A stretch of 64,000 nucleotides of DNA from contig NZ_FWEX01000006.1 in assembly GCF_900170025.1 (NCBI RefSeq), forward strand, positions 714,795 to 778,794, in the 5' to 3' direction. The notes under the pieces were generated by a model. That model was not told the origin of the DNA. It ran no database searches and saw only the letters and a program-made list of their open reading frames with translations. Source of the DNA: Nitrospira sp. ND1 (GTDB taxonomy: Bacteria; Nitrospirota; Nitrospiria; Nitrospirales; Nitrospiraceae). Positions 42,108-63,825 of this stretch are shown here, piece after piece. The position numbers and the translations under genes were made by a program. Numbering within the stretch: the stretch's first letter is position 1; each line of letters begins with the position of its first letter.

Positions 42108-42806
42108 TCAGCGAATGTCCTGAAAAAAGGCGCGTGGGAGATACGGCAGCTTGAACTCCACATGCAAAATGATCAGCAAGACGCGAAGAAAACTCCGCCA
42201 GATTCCCATTTTGAGAAACTTGCGGGCATCCGTGACAACTGGCGGTGAGAGAAGAATCGGCGTCGTGACTTTCAGTAAATTCTCACCGAACGCCACATCT
42301 TCCAGAATGGGCCGATCCGGAAATCCACCAAGCCGCTCGAACAACGCCCTCCGCACGAATACGGCTTGATCGCCGTAAATGATATGACTCCTGACACAGC
42401 GAAAATTGTCGAGCCATGAGATCATCCGGAGCCGCCAGTCCGACCCTGAGAATCGGTGTCGGAATCCGCCGGCCTGGATAGTAAGATTCCGCTCCAACGC
42501 ATTGATCCGACTCAGCGCATCGACGGGTAACAGCGTATCGGCATGGAGAAAGAGCAACCACTCGCCCCGCGCCAGCTTCGCGCCGGCATTCATCTGGGAC
42601 GCTCGTCCTTTTGGCGCCGTCACGAGCGTGAGCGGGGCCGGCAATCGACTATTGATCGGCCAGCGCCGAACGATTTCGCAGGTTCGATCGTGGCTTCCCC
42701 CATCAACCACGATCACTTCATACGACCCGGCTTGTTCGAACAACTGTCGGAGTGTGGCTGGCAGCGCTCGCTCTTCATTGTAGGCGGGAATGACGACGGA
42801 GATCAT
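42108..42806 (-). CDS. family 2 glycosyltransferase, TIGR04283-like
   Basis: The 232-residue protein has the GT2 fold: ISVVIPAYNEERALPATLRQ, VIVVDGGSHDRTCEIV, GRASQMNAGAKLARGEWLLFLHADT and GGFPDRPILEDVAFGENL. It matches the type annotated as rSAM/selenodomain-associated transferase 2. It is the last gene of a four-gene operon starting with a radical SAM enzyme, and its ATG overlaps the ferritin-like gene by 4 nt. The glycosyl donor and acceptor are unknown. The C-terminal hydrophobic stretch (about 205-222) may contact the membrane. Confidence 0.85.
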   Translation of the reverse strand: MISVVIPAYNEERALPATLRQLFEQAGSYEVIVVDGGSHDRTCEIVRRWPINSRLPAPLTLVTAPKGRASQMNAGAKLARGEWLLFLHADTLLPVDALSRINALERNLTIQAGGFRHRFSGSDWRLRMISWLDNFRCVRSHIIYGDQAVFVRRALFERLGGFPDRPILEDVAFGENLLKVTTPILLSPPVVTDARKFLKMGIWRSFLRVLLIILHVEFKLPYLPRAFFQDIR

Positions 42807-43438
42807 GCCGTCAACCACATGGGCAGGAAGGTACGTACATCGGCGGCCCATGCAGACGCGTCCTCGTCGATCGTCTCGAAGAGATCGCAGAGCGTCAACA
42901 CCATTGAGTCGGTCAAAGCCAGATAGTCCTGCGTGCGCAAACGAAGCGACTCCAACTCCCTGTGCCCATCCACCATCGCTCGCTCCAACACACGCCGCCC
43001 GAAGTCATGATGAGCCTCTTCCTGGTGCAGCAGCACTCGGCGCAACCGGCGGAACGGCGCCTGCCGCTTTTCAAGGCCGCCCTCAATCCGGGTCAAAATC
43101 GCCTCCCCCAATCCTTCCAGGATCACCTGTTCAGCCAGAATACTCTCCAGCCAATCGCCACGTTCAAGCGCCTCAGTGAGAAGCCGGCGATAGTCTTCGA
43201 GTGCCGGCAGAAAGGGCGCGTCACCGAGATGACGCGGTGCAAGCCACGCAATTGCGCCGCGGAAGACCACGGCATGCATCGCCTCCTGCCTGGCTTGGGT
43301 CGTCAAGAAACGACGCGCCTTCGGGTCGGGAGCCAGTGTGGCTTGGCGCTGCGCACACCCATGCGCCATTCGTTCGCCATGTTCAAGAAACGTCAGCAGC
43401 CGGGCAATGGGAACTCGTTCACTAGGCAATACGACCAT
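42803..43438 (-). CDS. ferritin-like diiron-type protein
   Basis: The 211-residue all-helical protein looks like a ferritin-like carboxylate oxidase or oxygenase. Candidate metal ligands are an ExxH in QEAMHAVV and a second set in LHQEEAHHDF, with helical glutamates at LEHGERMAHG and AEQVILEGLG. Such folds bind two irons and oxidise or hydroxylate substrates. The start at 43438 has AAGGAG upstream; a longer frame to 43612 overlaps the DUF547 gene and is not credible. It is the third gene of the radical SAM operon. Confidence 0.75.
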   Translation of the reverse strand: MVVLPSERVPIARLLTFLEHGERMAHGCAQRQATLAPDPKARRFLTTQARQEAMHAVVFRGAIAWLAPRHLGDAPFLPALEDYRRLLTEALERGDWLESILAEQVILEGLGEAILTRIEGGLEKRQAPFRRLRRVLLHQEEAHHDFGRRVLERAMVDGHRELESLRLRTQDYLALTDSMVLTLCDLFETIDEDASAWAADVRTFLPMWLTA

Positions 43439-43449
43439 GTACAACTCCT

Positions 43450-44226
43450 TCAGTACTGCGGGGAAGGACCATTCAAATGCCAATCGTAGTCGAGAAACTC
43501 CACGGTGTAGTCGCCGGCCAGAAGGTCCTGCTTGAGCGACGGATCTTGTACATACTCCCCGACATACCCCAGGATTGATCCTGAACGAGCCTCGAAATCG
43601 TTGGCAAACCATTTAAAAATCATCGACAACGAGGCCACTTTTCTCGATCGGTCGAAACGATTGCGCGAAGGATCGTTCACGAACTGGATCGCGACGTGAT
43701 TCAGTTGTTCATCTAGCTGGCGCCCATCAAACGCCCAGGACTGGAGTTTCGGGCAGGAGGCGGAAGCGCAGACGATAGCAAAATGTACACGTGGTTCGTG
43801 AAACTGGGCGATAAGAATCTCTCGCTCCAGATTGTAGAGATTCACCGGCTGTCCACCAATAGAGTATTCCCGCGCGATGAAGTACCGGTATCGGCCGAAC
43901 AACGTGTCCGGAGAATACCCATCCAGAATGCCCGTGACGGCGAAGGCATTATACGCATTGATCCAGAACGCCAGACGGTCTCCCGCCGACAAGCGGCCCG
44001 GATCTACTCGATTCAACAACGCGACATAGGATGGAAGCCGCCCCTGACGGCGAATGGCCGGGTAATCAACGACGCCATCACGGACATCGGTGCTCAGTAG
44101 TTCCTGCCACAACCGATGAGACACTTGCTCCGGCGGGAGCGAGTCTGAGAGGGTGAAAGAGGTCGGTACGGTCGAACAGCCTCCCAGCACGATCATCAGC
44201 GCTCCGATCAGGAAATTTCGCATCAC
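43450..44226 (-). CDS. DUF547 domain-containing lipoprotein
   Basis: The 258-residue protein starts with a lipoprotein signal (FLIGALMIVLGGCSTV). It carries a DUF547 domain: RLAFWINAYNAFAVTGIL, VNLYNLEREILIAQF, VHFAIVCASASCPKLQSWAF and a closing IFKWFANDFE. DUF547 proteins have a transglutaminase-like cysteine-histidine arrangement; the CASASCP segment could hold the active cysteine. No function is established. It lies 13 nt after the radical SAM gene and 11 nt before the ferritin-like gene. Confidence 0.85.
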   Translation of the reverse strand: MMRNFLIGALMIVLGGCSTVPTSFTLSDSLPPEQVSHRLWQELLSTDVRDGVVDYPAIRRQGRLPSYVALLNRVDPGRLSAGDRLAFWINAYNAFAVTGILDGYSPDTLFGRYRYFIAREYSIGGQPVNLYNLEREILIAQFHEPRVHFAIVCASASCPKLQSWAFDGRQLDEQLNHVAIQFVNDPSRNRFDRSRKVASLSMIFKWFANDFEARSGSILGYVGEYVQDPSLKQDLLAGDYTVEFLDYDWHLNGPSPQY

Positions 44227-44239
44227 AATTTTTCTCCTA

Positions 44240-45238
44240 TTAGAACCGCACCGGAGTTCGCCATGCTGTGATCGGATGTCTCAGGATCGTCCCAACCACG
44301 CGCCCATCGAGACGGTTGCAGGAAGACCCATCTGAACAGGCTTGAACCTGGCTCCGGTCGAAGCGACTGAGGATCTCTCGGTAGGGCACCTCGCGCAGGT
44401 TCCCCACCGCCGGCATCGCCAAGCAGGCTGAGACCTGGCCAGACGCATCGATGGCAATGCTATACCGGCCCGCGTCACAGGGCTCGAGCCGTTCTCCCCG
44501 CAACCAGACGGCGCTGTCCTTGACGAAATGTCGAAAATACCCGGCAGGGATCAGGTCGTCCTTCAACAGCTGTTCGAACACACGGATCGCGGCCGAACGA
44601 TCGTACATCAACACAGAGTCCTCTTTGCCGTAAAGGCCCACGTTCCAGTGGTAGGCTCCCACCACGGGAATGAAACCGTGCCGTCGTGCGAATCGCACGA
44701 CCTCCGGCACCTCGTCGCGATTGGCTTCGCTCACAATGCAGGTGAGGAATTTAGGAAAGGGATACCGTGCCAGGAGATTGAGTCCGGACAGGACTTGAGG
44801 CAACTGATCGGCCCCGCGTATCTGTCGGTAGCGAGCACGATCGAGCGTGTCCAGACTGATCGATACCGGTAAGCGCAACGAAGCACAGTGCGCAACAAGG
44901 TCGGGAGTGAGCCTGGTCCCATTGGTGATCACGGTCACTTGCAACCCCAGCGAGGAGAGGTCCGCCAGGATGTCGACGAGGTCCGTGCGTAGGAGCGGCT
45001 CACCCCCCTGAACAAGCACGAACCTGATACCTTCGGTATAGAGCTGTCCAAAGATGCCCCGGATCTCCTCTCGCGTCAGTTCATATCGTCCCTGGTTCAG
45101 AGGAAGGTCGCAGTAGCCACAGGCTGAGTTGCAACGCAGGGTCACCTGAAACGTGGCGAGGACCGGCCGCCCCCGTAAGAGATTTGCCACCGGCCGGGCA
45201 CAGTCGGCAAACATGGCCAGCGAGGACTTCCTCGTCAT
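44240..45238 (-). CDS. radical SAM protein with SPASM-like C-terminus
   Basis: The 332-residue protein has the radical SAM cluster motif CX3CX2C (LRCNSACGYCDLPLN, residues about 37-44), GGEPLLR, and a VSISLDTLDRARYRQIRG segment. A C-terminal cysteine set is EPCDAGRY, SACLAMP and CSDGSSC, similar to SPASM/twitch proteins that bind an auxiliary Fe-S cluster. It uses SAM to make a radical for an unknown substrate, cofactor or peptide. It heads an operon with DUF547, ferritin-like and glycosyltransferase genes. Start chosen at 45238 (MTRKSSL). Confidence 0.9.
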   Translation of the reverse strand: MTRKSSLAMFADCARPVANLLRGRPVLATFQVTLRCNSACGYCDLPLNQGRYELTREEIRGIFGQLYTEGIRFVLVQGGEPLLRTDLVDILADLSSLGLQVTVITNGTRLTPDLVAHCASLRLPVSISLDTLDRARYRQIRGADQLPQVLSGLNLLARYPFPKFLTCIVSEANRDEVPEVVRFARRHGFIPVVGAYHWNVGLYGKEDSVLMYDRSAAIRVFEQLLKDDLIPAGYFRHFVKDSAVWLRGERLEPCDAGRYSIAIDASGQVSACLAMPAVGNLREVPYREILSRFDRSQVQACSDGSSCNRLDGRVVGTILRHPITAWRTPVRF

Positions 45239-45438
45239 CGTGGATTCCCCGGTCGGCCTGAGCATATTTGAACACCTGTTGCCATTTCCATCCGGCCCCG
45301 CCGCCCCCGGTTCAGCACAACGCGACACAATCGGCACAAATCCAGGTGATTCTGCACTGCAGGCAACCGGTTTCCTGGCATACGGTTTGCTGAATCACTC
45401 TCTACACTGCAGCCTGACTCATCCCAGGGAGGATCGTT

Positions 45439-45852
45439 ATGAACACCAAGCTCCAGGCCTCGATACTCACCATCGCCGCGGCTAGCCTTGCAACCGTCGC
45501 TTTTGTCGTGGCGCCGGCATCGGCAAAGGACAAGGAGAAGGCCGGCAAACATTCGAACCATGCGACCACCACCTCGGCAGCCGCGGCCTCCTCACTTCTG
45601 GGATCAGTCCCTGAGCAACTCCCGGCACCGAAACCCGGACAACATGACTCCAAACCCGGAGTCGCCTGGAAGGCCGTGGGCGGCACCGTCAAAGAAATTC
45701 ACGGCGAGACGTACACAGTCGAAGACTTCGATGGCAGCCAAATGAAGGTGCATGTCGGACAGGGAACCAAGCACCTCCGGGGCAACAAAAAAGTGGGCGA
45801 CACCATTCGGGCTGAAATTACCCACGGTGGCTTCGCAAATTCAATTCAATAA
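45439..45852 (+). CDS. small secreted protein, OB-like C-terminal domain
   Basis: The 137-residue protein has a signal peptide (LQASILTIAAASLATVAFVVAPASAK). A charged and Ala/Thr-rich linker follows, then a beta-rich C-terminal half (about residues 75-137, VGGTVKEIHGETYTVEDFDG, VHVGQGTKHLRGNKKVGD) like an OB-type periplasmic domain. A GGGAGG lies upstream of the ATG. It is divergent from the radical SAM operon and followed by a good hairpin. Function is unknown. Confidence 0.75.
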   Translation: MNTKLQASILTIAAASLATVAFVVAPASAKDKEKAGKHSNHATTTSAAAASSLLGSVPEQLPAPKPGQHDSKPGVAWKAVGGTVKEIHGETYTVEDFDGSQMKVHVGQGTKHLRGNKKVGDTIRAEITHGGFANSIQ

Positions 45853-45959: not shown

Positions 45960-46709
45960 TCACTTCAACGCCCTGACGAAAACGATGTCACCGTAATAGG
46001 CCACGGACCGCTCCTTGGTGTTATCCGTATCGCTCATAATCGCGACGCCGCTGATCGCCGGCGGCTCTTCGCCGAAGGCCAGTCGATAATCCTCATACAC
46101 ATTGCGCTCTTCCTCCACCCACGTGCCGATGCGCTGCGGCCCGCTCTCCACCACGATCATCTTCGCAAAGTCGGTAAAGGCATTGTCCACCACCGTCCCG
46201 ACCGGGCTCTTGCCGTCCCAAATGTAATTCAATGCGCCGATCGGAATATCACCGAACAGCATCCGACCGGCCTGATACTTCAATTTCCGTCCGAAACTCA
46301 CCTTTGCCGGTTCATAAGCAAAGGTAATATAGAGGCGCGCGGGATAGTCATCACCGTCCTTGCGGTTCACATTGCCCTTCTGCAGCAGATTCTCTACCTT
46401 CCATCGCCAGCGCACGATCGGATACTCATGCGGGTCAATCGCCACGGCCTTGGTCAGGCCTGAGGCGGACACCTCGCTCACAGCTTTCACCACGGAAACC
46501 GGCCCGTCCTTCACCACCTCGTATGTCGTGTGCCGTTCGATCTTCTTGAACGTCAGCGGTGCCCACCCATCGGGCAATACGGCGCCTTCAGCCGCGACCG
46601 AAAAGTGTCCGACCTCCAGCTTCGCAGAGCCCTGCGCATGTGCGACCATCGCAGCACCCGACAAGCACATGAGCAGGACAATCCCGCGCCGCATCATGTG
46701 TCCCCTCAT
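45960..46709 (-). CDS. DUF3047 domain-containing secreted protein
   Basis: The 249-residue protein has a signal peptide (GIVLLMCLSGAAMVAHAQ) and the DUF3047 domain: PDGWAPLTFKKIERHTTYEV, IVRWRWKVENLL, DYPARLYITFAY, NYIWD and a final YYGDIVFVRA strand. DUF3047 is a beta-sandwich family of unknown function, predicted exported. It is the last gene of a three-gene minus-strand operon after TVP38 and the oxidoreductase, with which it shares ATGA at 46706-46709. Downstream in-frame ATGs (four and five codons in) are alternatives. Confidence 0.85.
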   Translation of the reverse strand: MRGHMMRRGIVLLMCLSGAAMVAHAQGSAKLEVGHFSVAAEGAVLPDGWAPLTFKKIERHTTYEVVKDGPVSVVKAVSEVSASGLTKAVAIDPHEYPIVRWRWKVENLLQKGNVNRKDGDDYPARLYITFAYEPAKVSFGRKLKYQAGRMLFGDIPIGALNYIWDGKSPVGTVVDNAFTDFAKMIVVESGPQRIGTWVEEERNVYEDYRLAFGEEPPAISGVAIMSDTDNTKERSVAYYGDIVFVRALK

Positions 46710-48259
46710 CGCCTCAACCAGGCAAAGAGTCTCGTTAACAGCATCTTAGTCCGCGCCGTAAAGTGCGCCTTGCGCCAGAGGTTGACGACCTTCTTGTTGA
46801 CTTCCACCCGGGTGGGATAAGGATGGATTGTGGCGGCGATCGTTTTCGCACCGGCACCGGCCTTCATCGCCACAGAAAACTCACTGATCAAGTCACCGGC
46901 ATGCGCCGCCACGATCGTGGCCCCGAGAATTTTGTCGGTGCCTTTCTGAATATGGATGCGGGCAAACCCTTCTTGCTCACCATCCAGGATGGCTCGATCC
47001 ACCTCACCGAGTTTGTAGGTATAGGTTTCGATCTCCAAGCCTTTCTTTTTGGCATCCGCTTCGTAGAGGCCGACATGAGCGATCTCGGGCTCGGTAAACG
47101 TGCACCAGGGCATGATCAGCGACTCCATGCTGGCATACCCCAGCCCGAAGGGATGCGGGAACAATGCATTTTGAATGACGATCTGCGCCATCGCATCCGC
47201 GGCATGGGTGAATTTATACCGGGAACAAATGTCGCCGGCGGCGTAGATACGCGAGTTCGTTGTCTGGAGGCGATCGTTCACTTTCACGCCGGTTTTGTCG
47301 TACTCAACCCCGATCGTCTCCAACCCCAGCCCCTCGACATTCGGGCTACGCCCGACGCCAACCAGAATTTCGTCCACCGTGACATCGTAGTGCTGGCCGT
47401 GGGAATCAACCAGCAACCGCTTCCCGGTGGCCGTTCGTTCCACTCTCAGATCCTTCCCGCAACAGAGCAGCCTGACACCGTCCCGCATTATGGACTGCTG
47501 CACCACCTCCGCTGCGTCCCGATCCTCATTCGGCATGATGCCGTGCATCGCTTCAATGAGTGACACCTCGCTCCCGAAGCGAGCGAAGGCCTGCGCCAGT
47601 TCGCACCCGATCGGGCCCGCGCCGATCACGGCGAGACGCGCCGGCAACTCCGTCAGCGAAAACACCGTTTCATTGGTGAGATATCCCGCCTCTGCCAACC
47701 CCGGGATGGCCGGCGCCGAAGCCCTTGCCCCGGTACAGACTGCCGCGTTGACGAAGGTCAGCGTCCGATTTCCAGATGGGCCCTCCACCGACACTGCATC
47801 CCGGCCGGTGAAGCGAGCCTGCCCGATATAGACATCGACCCCCAGCGACTTGTAGCGATGAGCGGAATCCACATGGCTGATCCCGGCACGCAATTTTCGC
47901 ATCCTGGTCATTACCGCACCGAAGTCACGAGTCACCCCCGGCGGGATATGCAGCCCGAAAGCCGAGGCATCCCGCAACTGCGCCCAAGCATTGGCCGCAC
48001 GAATCAGCGCCTTGGAGGGCACGCATCCGACGTTCAGACAATCGCCTCCCATCAGATGGCGTTCGATCAACGCGACCTTTGCGCCCAATCCCGCCGCCAC
48101 CACCGCCGTGATCAGCCCCGCGGTGCCGGCACCGACCACAACCATGTTGTAGCGACCGGCAGGCTCGGGATTCAGCCAGTCCGGCGGATGCACATTTGCG
48201 ACCAACATCCGGTTGTGTTCGTCATCCGGCAGGACCAAGCTTTGGACAGAAGCGCTCAT
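46706..48259 (-). CDS. mercuric-reductase-like pyridine nucleotide-disulfide oxidoreductase
   Basis: The 517-residue FAD/NAD(P)H enzyme has the disulfide active site GGDCLNVGCVPSKALI near residue 65. FAD and NAD motifs are VVVGAGTAGLI and LAVIGAGPIGCELA, then VGVGRSPN and YAAGDIC. It lacks the N-terminal HMA domain and the C-terminal cysteine pair of true MerA: the end (VVNLWRKAHFTART...) has no CC. So mercury reduction is doubtful; a role with the neighbouring TVP38 membrane protein is more likely. Start at 48259. Confidence 0.88.
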   Translation of the reverse strand: MSASVQSLVLPDDEHNRMLVANVHPPDWLNPEPAGRYNMVVVGAGTAGLITAVVAAGLGAKVALIERHLMGGDCLNVGCVPSKALIRAANAWAQLRDASAFGLHIPPGVTRDFGAVMTRMRKLRAGISHVDSAHRYKSLGVDVYIGQARFTGRDAVSVEGPSGNRTLTFVNAAVCTGARASAPAIPGLAEAGYLTNETVFSLTELPARLAVIGAGPIGCELAQAFARFGSEVSLIEAMHGIMPNEDRDAAEVVQQSIMRDGVRLLCCGKDLRVERTATGKRLLVDSHGQHYDVTVDEILVGVGRSPNVEGLGLETIGVEYDKTGVKVNDRLQTTNSRIYAAGDICSRYKFTHAADAMAQIVIQNALFPHPFGLGYASMESLIMPWCTFTEPEIAHVGLYEADAKKKGLEIETYTYKLGEVDRAILDGEQEGFARIHIQKGTDKILGATIVAAHAGDLISEFSVAMKAGAGAKTIAATIHPYPTRVEVNKKVVNLWRKAHFTARTKMLLTRLFAWLRR

Positions 48260-48316
48260 TGAAGTCGGATTCTCCCTCTGGTGAATAACCATGGACGCGG
48301 TCTTTCGCCCTGACCG

Positions 48317-49063
48317 CTATGGATGTCGACGAGAACCATCCTGCAGTGAGACCGGCTTACCGGCCAGCTTCCTATAGAGAATAGGCACCAGCGCTAACAG
48401 ACCGAGTAACGTGAATGCGAGCAACACATTGGGCGAGGCGATTTCCTTGAGTGAACTGATCGTGCCGAGTTGGCGGCCGGCATACGCAAAGACAAAACTG
48501 CCGGGAATGATGCCCAAGGAGGTCGCCGCCATGTAGGTCCCCACATTGACCCTGGTCAGCCCCGAGACCATATTGACCAGAAAAAACGGGAACAGCGGGA
48601 TCAACCGCAGCGTCATCAGATAACTGAACGCATTCCTGGCAAATCCCTGCTGAATCGCATCCAACCGGCTGCCGAATTTCTGCTCCACCCATTCCCTGAG
48701 CAGATAGCGAGCCACCAAAAACGCCAGCGTCGCACCCACGGTCGCACCGACATTGACGTAGAGCGTGCCCAACAGGCTGCCGAAGAGAAATCCTCCGGCC
48801 AACGTCATGATCGCTCCACCGGGCAGCGAGAGCCCGACCACCACACAGTAGCCGAGCACGAACATGGCCACCGCGACCGGATAATTGGCTTCTGTAAACG
48901 CGAGCAGACGAGCCCGGTTGGATTTGAGCCCATCCAGCGAGAGGTACTGTCCGAGATCAAAGTAGAAAAATGCGGCGAGGCTCAGCCCGACAAAAATCCC
49001 CAGCATCAGTTTGCCGAGCCCGGCGCGTTTCGAAGATGAGGGCGATGCTACAGATGTGGTCAT
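48317..49063 (-). CDS. TVP38/TMEM64 (VTT domain) membrane protein
   Basis: The 248-residue protein has about six hydrophobic segments. The VTT signature is GLSLPGGAIMTLAGGFLFGSLLGTLYVN, with GATLAFLVARYLLR and SYLMTLRLIPLFPFFLVN. The family is linked to lipid scrambling and membrane homeostasis. It precedes the FAD oxidoreductase by 57 nt on the same strand, a common pairing. The ATG at 49063 has AAGGTG upstream; 49084 is possible. Confidence 0.88.
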   Translation of the reverse strand: MTTSVASPSSSKRAGLGKLMLGIFVGLSLAAFFYFDLGQYLSLDGLKSNRARLLAFTEANYPVAVAMFVLGYCVVVGLSLPGGAIMTLAGGFLFGSLLGTLYVNVGATVGATLAFLVARYLLREWVEQKFGSRLDAIQQGFARNAFSYLMTLRLIPLFPFFLVNMVSGLTRVNVGTYMAATSLGIIPGSFVFAYAGRQLGTISSLKEIASPNVLLAFTLLGLLALVPILYRKLAGKPVSLQDGSRRHP

Positions 49064-49333
49064 GGCACCTTGGGGCGGTATCATCCTGCCTCCTCACTCA
49101 TGTGTCAATCGTGGACTCACCTGCGCGGACAAGACACCGCTCGTGGCTGAAAGAATGTCAGCAACCTTACAGAGGAAGGAACCTGCTTGTCACCACATTG
49201 CACTCTATACGGATGGCGAATCTAATTAGATTGCCCGCCTGCACGATGATGACCCACGACGGGACCAGTGGCCCTCAAGTCCCCGCCTTGTCCCTCCGAA
49301 AGAACTCTTGAAGACAGGGTGCCAGTGGAGGTA

Positions 49334-62737: not shown

Positions 62738-63778
62738 TCAGTGCGATCCGGCTAGAGGGGGCAAGGCACCAAGGTAGGGAAACTCACCGATTTTCACCAG
62801 CGCGGTATCCGCACGAAGCCTGAAATCATCCCGGGCAGTGTCAACGAATCGTGGATCCACCGTCAAATCAGAATCAGGCTTCAGTTCTGGAGCCGGTTGG
62901 TTGGGGGTTCCGGACCGAAGATAGTTGGACCCGGAGTTTTGCATGGCATTGTAGGAGAACAGCACCCGGCTGGAGGGGGCTACGACGAACCCATAGGCGT
63001 TGAGGCTCACAATATTGCCGGAGGCTTCATTCTGCGAGGTGCCTAAAAACGCCGCCCCGCCACCGTTTTTCACAAAGGTATTGCCGAGTAAGGTCGCCTT
63101 CGCTTGATCGTTGACGATGACCGCCTCGAACAGGCTCCTGGTAATGACGTTTCGTTCGAGTCGTACCGTGGATTTGCCTGCGACGCTGACACCATGATCA
63201 TTGTCATGGATGAAATTGCTCCGCATGACCGCCTGAGAATTTGCGAATTGAACGCCGGTGGTTTCACTGCCGCCGATAATACAGTCCTCGATGCGCACAT
63301 CTTCCACCTGCTGCGTAAACAACATCCCTTTGACCCGCACATGGTGGAGCACGATGCCGCGGCCGTTGAACATCCCCATCGCGTGCCCGCCATGTTCGTT
63401 GATCGTGATGCCGGAGATCTCGATGTTGGTCGCGCCATAGGGCCACTTTCCGACATGGAACACCCCGACCCGCTCACGGCCCAAGATCGTCACCTGATCC
63501 ATTCCTGCTCCGATCAGGCGAACGTTCTCCTTGCTGTGAATGGTCACATCCTCGGCATAGGCGCCGGGCCTGATGAGCACGGTGTCACCCTTCTTTGCGG
63601 CATCCACCGCTTCCTGAATGGATAGGAACTGACCCGAGCCGTCCAACGCCACCACCAGCGGCTGTCGTTCAACGGACGCCGGCTCTTCAGCCTGAGCGAT
63701 GGGTAGGCTCAAGACCTGGGCCGAGGCCGATAGACACACAAAGAGGACGGCGAATAGACAATTTTTCATGTTCTTCAT
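62738..63778 (-). CDS. secreted right-handed beta-helix protein
   Basis: The 346-residue protein has a signal peptide ([26 protein letters not shown]) and repeated turns of a parallel beta-helix. These include [20 protein letters not shown] and [16 protein letters not shown], then [40 protein letters not shown] and [11 protein letters not shown]. This is the NosD/pectate-lyase-3 architecture, often in polysaccharide- or surface-associated proteins. The start at 63778 (MKNMKN) precedes a clear signal; an ATG 24 nt upstream is possible. Confidence 0.85.
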
Positions 63779-63825
63779 ACAAATGGTCATACCGCCGGGC
63801 ATGGCGAGAAGTCAATCGAGCGTCA

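Follow-up and report, generated by a model that had tools for sequence, protein, structure and literature searches.

A conserved four-gene operon of the Nitrospirales with a radical SAM enzyme and an ADO-like ferritin-like protein: a candidate metal(loid)-stress pathway

What could be made by a radical S-adenosylmethionine (SAM) enzyme, a DUF547 lipoprotein, a ferritin-like protein (FLP) and a glycosyltransferase (GT) that are encoded side by side, when the GT belongs to a family of arsenosugar loci and the arsenosugar genes themselves lie elsewhere in the genome? This question is raised by a stretch of 64,000 nucleotides from Nitrospira sp. ND1 (contig NZ_FWEX01000006.1, positions 714,795 to 778,794; hereafter the window), which is located at C6:0.71-0.78 Mb of the 4.45-Mb genome, one of Nitrospira type. 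An open reading frame (ORF) check of the window places the four genes in close succession on the minus strand:

44240..45265, minus strand: radical SAM enzyme, 341 aa from ATG 45265 (Radical_SAM PF04055, E 9.7e-22; SPASM PF13186 weak, at threshold)
43450..44226, minus strand: DUF547 lipoprotein with lipobox LGGC (PF04784, E 6.9e-25)
42803..43438, minus strand: FLP, a predicted diiron-type ferritin-like protein with the fold of aldehyde-deformylating oxygenase (ADO), from an invariant Glu/His set and a fold match of its AlphaFold2 model
42108..42806, minus strand: GT2 of the TIGR04283 family, a cluster-specific paralogue in a clade of its own (216.7 bits against a cut-off of 182)

The four genes form a real unit, and they recur together as an operon in the order Nitrospirales far more often than chance would allow. 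The reading favored here, tentatively and at somewhat less than even confidence, is that the unit serves the Nitrospirales as an accessory biosynthetic operon in metal(loid) stress, with an arsenosugar-like layout, a different radical SAM enzyme and an ADO-like di-metal enzyme. The tight succession of four minus-strand genes had been described in a first-pass annotation, made from the sequence alone, and it was borne out with the radical SAM start as the only revision. The DUF547 gene starts at GTG 44226 or ATG 44223, leaving a gap of 13 or 16 nt to the radical SAM gene, and is separated by 11 nt from the FLP gene, which starts at ATG 43438 and overlaps the GT gene, starting at 42806, by 4 nt. 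For the radical SAM gene, ATG 45265 is the likelier start rather than ATG 45238 (332 aa), because the frame remains open over the nine codons between them and the upstream ATG is conserved in close relatives and lies behind AACAGGTG. Residues of this enzyme are numbered from ATG 45238.

Evidence for the unit comes from a profile search of genome contigs with the FLP alignment, which returned 80 loci whose flanks were examined up to 8 kb. Gene counts were taken from the loci with complete flanks, 44 of Nitrospira type and 12 of a sister lineage. The radical SAM, DUF547 and GT genes stand beside FLP in 39, 43 and 43 of the 44 Nitrospira-type loci and in 8, 11 and 12 of the 12 sister-lineage loci, respectively. 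Moreover, pairwise distances among the four cluster proteins correlate at 0.71-0.89, as expected if the genes were inherited together. Nearly all of the 80 loci are named Nitrospira, Nitrospirales or Nitrospirota, and the few with other organism labels may reflect binning or naming errors. Within 198 sampled Nitrospirota genomes, FLP relatives of at least 47% identity occur in 25, all of one order, the remaining matches being weak, and each of the 20 genomes with a strong radical SAM profile match is FLP-positive (20/20). Based on its absence from N. moscoviensis (L083), which keeps the other three genes, and from eight further complete loci, the radical SAM step seems to be optional.

The distribution outside the Nitrospirota was followed by one FLP profile scan of genome contigs and by plasmid searches. 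Neither found the full FLP and radical SAM set outside the Nitrospirales; in other phyla, the recurring part consists only of DUF547, TIGR04283, a VTT-domain membrane protein and a MerA-like oxidoreductase. The expectation that the four families recur as a cluster free of ArsS, the radical SAM enzyme of arsenosugar loci, was therefore upheld across the Nitrospirales but not for the full set in distant genomes. FLP homologues of other Nitrospirota classes (L145-L150 and L155; 25-32% identity) were rejected as cluster members since no other cluster gene is nearby, as was a weak FLP-like match on a Tistrella plasmid (29%), also with no cluster genes nearby. Plasmid matches to the cluster radical SAM enzyme showed only general radical SAM likeness, below about 30%, and were set aside. 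The operon itself varies in places: in one Nitrospira genome the FLP gene seems to be split in two pieces (G018:C81:25195-25715), and the sister-lineage loci L095, L098, L109 and L110 include a class I methyltransferase gene in the operon, which in L098 and L110 also encodes another conserved secreted protein that fits no known family.

The radical SAM enzyme possesses seven cysteines that are invariant in 61 orthologues. Three of them, C36, C40 and C43, form the CX3CX2C motif recognized earlier, and the others, C254, C272, C301 and C307, are C-terminal. A C-x12-G-x4-C spacing is the pattern of SPASM/twitch domains, and because the first two auxiliary cysteines match it, the enzyme likely carries one auxiliary cluster of the twitch or partial SPASM kind. 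A full SPASM domain, with two auxiliary clusters and seven or eight C-terminal cysteines, is not indicated by the four that are invariant here. Thus, the SPASM-like cysteine set of the first-pass annotation is conserved, but it corresponds to a twitch or partial SPASM rather than to the full domain. The protein scores above no curated family cut-off, the best being MoaA (84 against 284), and reaches 26 bits with the ArsS model TIGR04167, whose cut-off is 300. Its closest solved relative is cytosylglucuronate decarboxylase, in the core domain only. Judged from its sequence, it would represent a new subfamily outside the curated families, unlike ArsS in bearing a twitch domain. The mycofactocin system resembles this locus in combining a radical SAM enzyme with an MftF-like GT2. 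However, the radical SAM enzyme (59.1 against 265 bits for MftC, TIGR03962) and the GT (37 against 280 bits for MftF) both miss the cut-offs, and this assignment was rejected on these scores. No precursor peptide gene was seen.

FLP matches no Pfam family above threshold, and in sequence its family resembles R2, COQ7, phenol hydroxylase and ADO only weakly. Nevertheless, E22, E52xxH55, E103, E108 and E140xxH143 are invariant in 40 sequences, including both of the ExxH-type sites that had been noted at first reading. These residues complete a putative four-Glu/two-His dimetal site, in which either E103 or E108 would be the ligand. An AlphaFold2 model built from the alignment of 40 sequences (pLDDT 86) aligns along its whole length with cyanobacterial ADO (201 of its 211 residues, Z 23.0, root-mean-square deviation 2.6), while R2-like ligand-binding oxidase (R2lox) scores lower, at Z 19.9. 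FLP is thus predicted to be a diiron-type protein of ADO size with the eight-helix ADO-type ferritin-like fold, which strengthens the earlier assignment. Similarity to ADO (PF11266) extends to a near-equal length and the E/ExxH/E/ExxH ligand pattern. In contrast, identity is 17-20%, the locus lacks the cyanobacterial alkane context, and the PF11266 threshold was not reached: the window FLP is unlisted at E 0.1, and one of 40 members matches weakly (E 0.0027). A predicted fold common to both proteins does not in itself show ADO activity. R2lox and ribonucleotide reductase R2 share the superfamily and the metal-ligand pattern (Z 19-20), with weak PF00268 similarity, but FLP is about 60-100 residues shorter than these proteins, and its match to ADO is stronger by about 3 Z units.

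The assignment of the second gene product as a DUF547 lipoprotein agrees with its PF04784 match and lipobox. The lipobox C16 is invariant together with H147, C152 and C157, and the protein probably sits on the periplasmic or outer-membrane side. Its AlphaFold2 model (pLDDT 89) reached a best Z of 4.7 against PDB folds, with no Foldseek match at E 0.001, and sequence comparison found no solved relative. The literature searched yielded no bacterial function for DUF547 and nothing relevant on DUF547 or TIGR04283 with these partners.

ADO and R2lox bind long acyl chains. Since these are the top fold matches of FLP, the operon may instead encode an envelope lipid or hydrocarbon pathway with no tie to metals, in which FLP would have a fatty acyl or aldehyde chain as its substrate, the radical SAM enzyme would modify that chain or the headgroup, and the GT would form a glycolipid that DUF547 carries or anchors. 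The hydrophobic C-terminus of the GT, the lipoprotein nature of DUF547 and the gain of a methyltransferase and an extra secreted protein in some sister-lineage loci are all consistent with this explanation. However, no gene for an acyl-ACP reductase, an acyltransferase or a lipid carrier was recognized among the identified recurrent neighbors, and the ArsS, bufferin and metal-efflux genes that recur beside the partner families would be left unexplained. The lipid pathway is possible but doubtful.

The fourth gene product scores above the curated TIGR04283 cut-off, as the first reading had proposed, and so shares its family with arsenosugar loci, which comprise ArsM, ArsS (TIGR04167), TIGR04282 and TIGR04283. 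The cluster GTs nevertheless form a single clade on a long branch (support 100/98), separate from all other sampled Nitrospirota TIGR04283 proteins and from the Burkholderia one. The true ArsS of the genome is encoded at C6:2496341 (450 bits against the cut-off of 300), where it adjoins ArsM-type methyltransferases (C6:2.49 Mb), and the TIGR04282/TIGR04283 pair lies at C6:2.62 Mb, so that these genes are 1.7-1.9 Mb from the window. Neither ArsS nor TIGR04282 was found within the fetched flanks of the 80 operon loci, and the 395-aa ArsM-like protein of the genome has no match there at E 1e-15. Because ArsM, ArsS and the TIGR04282/TIGR04283 pair are located elsewhere, the four-gene operon is not an arsenosugar locus, although the GT family is shared. 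These results sustain the earlier statements that the locus has no ArsM or ArsS motif and that no assigned product is known, and they contradict the possibility raised there against the proposal, that the radical SAM enzyme is an ordinary arsenosugar member. No known pathway accounts for the four genes. A third TIGR04283 GT of the genome is found in a metal-efflux island (L221, G000:C5:594000-611000) with a CzcA-type RND protein, a heavy-metal P-type ATPase and a MerR-type regulator.

The genes that precede the operon add to the comparison with arsenosugar loci:

45439..45852, plus strand: small secreted protein of 137 aa, divergently transcribed, without a Pfam or NCBIfam family
45960..46709, minus strand: DUF3047 protein, last gene of a co-oriented upstream operon (PF11249, E 3e-78)
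46706..48292, minus strand: MerA-like oxidoreductase containing flavin adenine dinucleotide (NF004991, 774 bits against a cut-off of 620)
48317..49084, minus strand: TVP38/TMEM64 (VTT-domain) membrane protein (PF09335, E 5.5e-27)

The secreted protein shares an intergenic region with the operon in the opposite orientation, and it is kept in 39 of the 44 Nitrospira-type loci and none of the 12 sister-lineage loci. DUF3047 is likewise near FLP in 39 of 44 Nitrospira-type loci. The MerA-like protein fits NF004991 and misses the mercury(II) reductase model TIGR02053 (375.5 against 454.45 bits). Close to the window edge, at 62738-63802 on the minus strand, there is in addition a NosD-like right-handed beta-helix protein.

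VTT, MerA-like, DUF547 and TIGR04283 genes, all present in the window, are usual neighbors of ArsS in both Burkholderia and Cupriavidus. In Cupriavidus, ArsS, MerA-like, VTT, TIGR04283, TIGR04282 and DUF547 genes lie within 8 kb. A single 30-kb stretch of Burkholderia glumae plasmids (NZ_CP100267, 42.7-71.8 kb; L156/L160) bears ArsS, TIGR04283, TIGR04282, DUF547, a VTT/MerA-like fusion and two bufferin clusters, and DUF547 there adjoins a different radical SAM gene. Hymenobacter combines ArsS, TIGR04283 and DUF547 without VTT or MerA, and Roseomonas has VTT, MerA-like, DUF547 and GT2 genes together. On a plasmid of Roseomonas haemaphysalidis (L158/L161), a phosphonate-type ABC transporter set follows directly on TIGR04282, DUF547 and a pair of radical SAM genes. 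Overall, the Nitrospira locus resembles arsenosugar loci in its TIGR04283 GT, its DUF547, VTT and MerA-like neighbors and its single radical SAM gene per locus, and differs from them in the absence of ArsM, ArsS and TIGR04282, in its putative twitch-bearing radical SAM subfamily and in the extra ADO-like diiron-type protein.

These neighbors also bear on whether the operon might act late in arsenosugar synthesis, converting ArsM/ArsS products made elsewhere in the cell into another arsenosugar or an arsenolipid. In its favor, the GT and the arsenosugar-type GT are paralogues, the partner families stand beside ArsS in other phyla, and a VTT-DUF3047 module with a short MerA remnant between the two genes adjoins an ArsS-TIGR04283 operon in one genome (L222, G167). 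ArsS is present in 55 of 56 sampled genomes of two families, including every cluster-bearing genome, but so nearly universal a gene is uninformative by its presence, and many genomes with ArsS have no operon. With neither ArsS nor an ArsM-like gene in the flanks of the 80 operons, such a late branch is unlikely.

A second metal connection comes from the bufferin genes, which encode an MNIO-dependent ribosomally synthesized and post-translationally modified peptide (RiPP) system. The sister lineage has BufA2, BufB and BufC mixed in with the operon genes, all on one strand, in 7-8 of its 12 complete loci. Specifically, L098, L102, L103, L104, L109, L110 and L114 carry them among the radical SAM, DUF547, FLP and GT genes in three gene orders, and L099 has BufB and BufC with FLP and GT. 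The sister-lineage BufA2 and BufB score above their NCBIfam cut-offs. That bufferin and operon genes stay together despite rearrangement in this lineage speaks for a common role or regulation. The VTT-MerA-DUF3047 module also adjoins BufA2-BufB-BufC in one Nitrospirota genome (L154). The arsenosugar-type genes upstream and the bufferins of the sister lineage constitute a metal context that was absent from the first reading.

The complete BufA2-BufB-BufC module inside the operon could mean that the radical SAM enzyme and FLP modify BufA2 or the copper site of this copper-binding peptide, with the GT and DUF547 completing or anchoring the product. In contrast, the Nitrospira-type operons are without BufA2, BufB and BufC (BufA2 in 0 of 44), no BufB scores above cut-off in this genome, the operon gaps are too short for a peptide gene, and bufferin genes, ArsS and DUF547 are merely adjacent in Burkholderia. 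A survey of MNIO clusters from 2025 gives their core as precursor, MNIO, DUF2063 and DoxX, and its main text mentions no DUF547, ferritin or glycosyltransferase (PMC12452194). Bufferin tailoring is disfavored as a general function, given the Nitrospira operons that lack these genes, and we regard it as quite improbable.

For a metal(loid)-stress operon, we infer the following order of steps, substrate and product. The radical SAM enzyme would use 5'-deoxyadenosyl radical chemistry to make or alter the precursor, a small molecule, after which the ADO-like FLP would use O2 at its dimetal site to oxidize or shorten a hydrophobic portion. The GT would then attach a sugar, and the DUF547 lipoprotein would take up or process the product at the envelope, with transport and redox steps provided by the VTT protein and the MerA-like reductase. 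The product may bind or mask copper, arsenic or a similar soft metal(loid), or repair the damage that this causes. The first-pass annotation had proposed a pathway of radical chemistry, diiron oxidation, glycosylation and a lipoprotein step; this outline gains from the conserved unit, the predicted diiron-type fold and the unassigned radical SAM enzyme, but its function is a matter of inference and the metal context had been missed.

Several points weigh against a role in metal(loid) stress. The link to metals is drawn from gene neighborhoods, and the four-gene unit itself contains no metal-resistance gene. The bufferin genes are missing from the Nitrospira-type operons, and across the family FLP and BufB co-occur about at chance (5 genomes shared among 46, of which 23 have FLP and 9 have BufB). 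In addition, the counts come from related genomes of one order and are of limited independence. A more specific and rather unlikely version holds that the new radical SAM subfamily and the ADO-like enzyme produce a new class of bacterial metabolite, glycosylated and lipid-like, that binds metal(loid)s or contains a metalloid. Nitrite oxidizers would make it when stressed by copper or arsenic, and in some lineages it would be coupled to bufferin copper peptides.

Nitrospira are the main nitrite oxidizers of water treatment and of many soils, comammox strains included, and nitrification is influenced by metals, copper among them. With its putative oxygenase and radical enzyme, this conserved but undescribed operon would provide a concrete way of reaching a new metabolite and of learning what the widespread DUF547 family does. 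What is new here is the predicted ADO fold and dimetal pattern of FLP, the unassigned radical SAM enzyme, the dedicated GT clade, the ArsS-type neighbors and the bufferins within the sister-lineage operon. Moreover, partner genes of the arsenosugar type lie near bufferin genes in both Nitrospirota and Pseudomonadota, two phyla that are unrelated. This suggests a wider role in metal stress for some of the partner proteins that usually take their name from arsenosugars.

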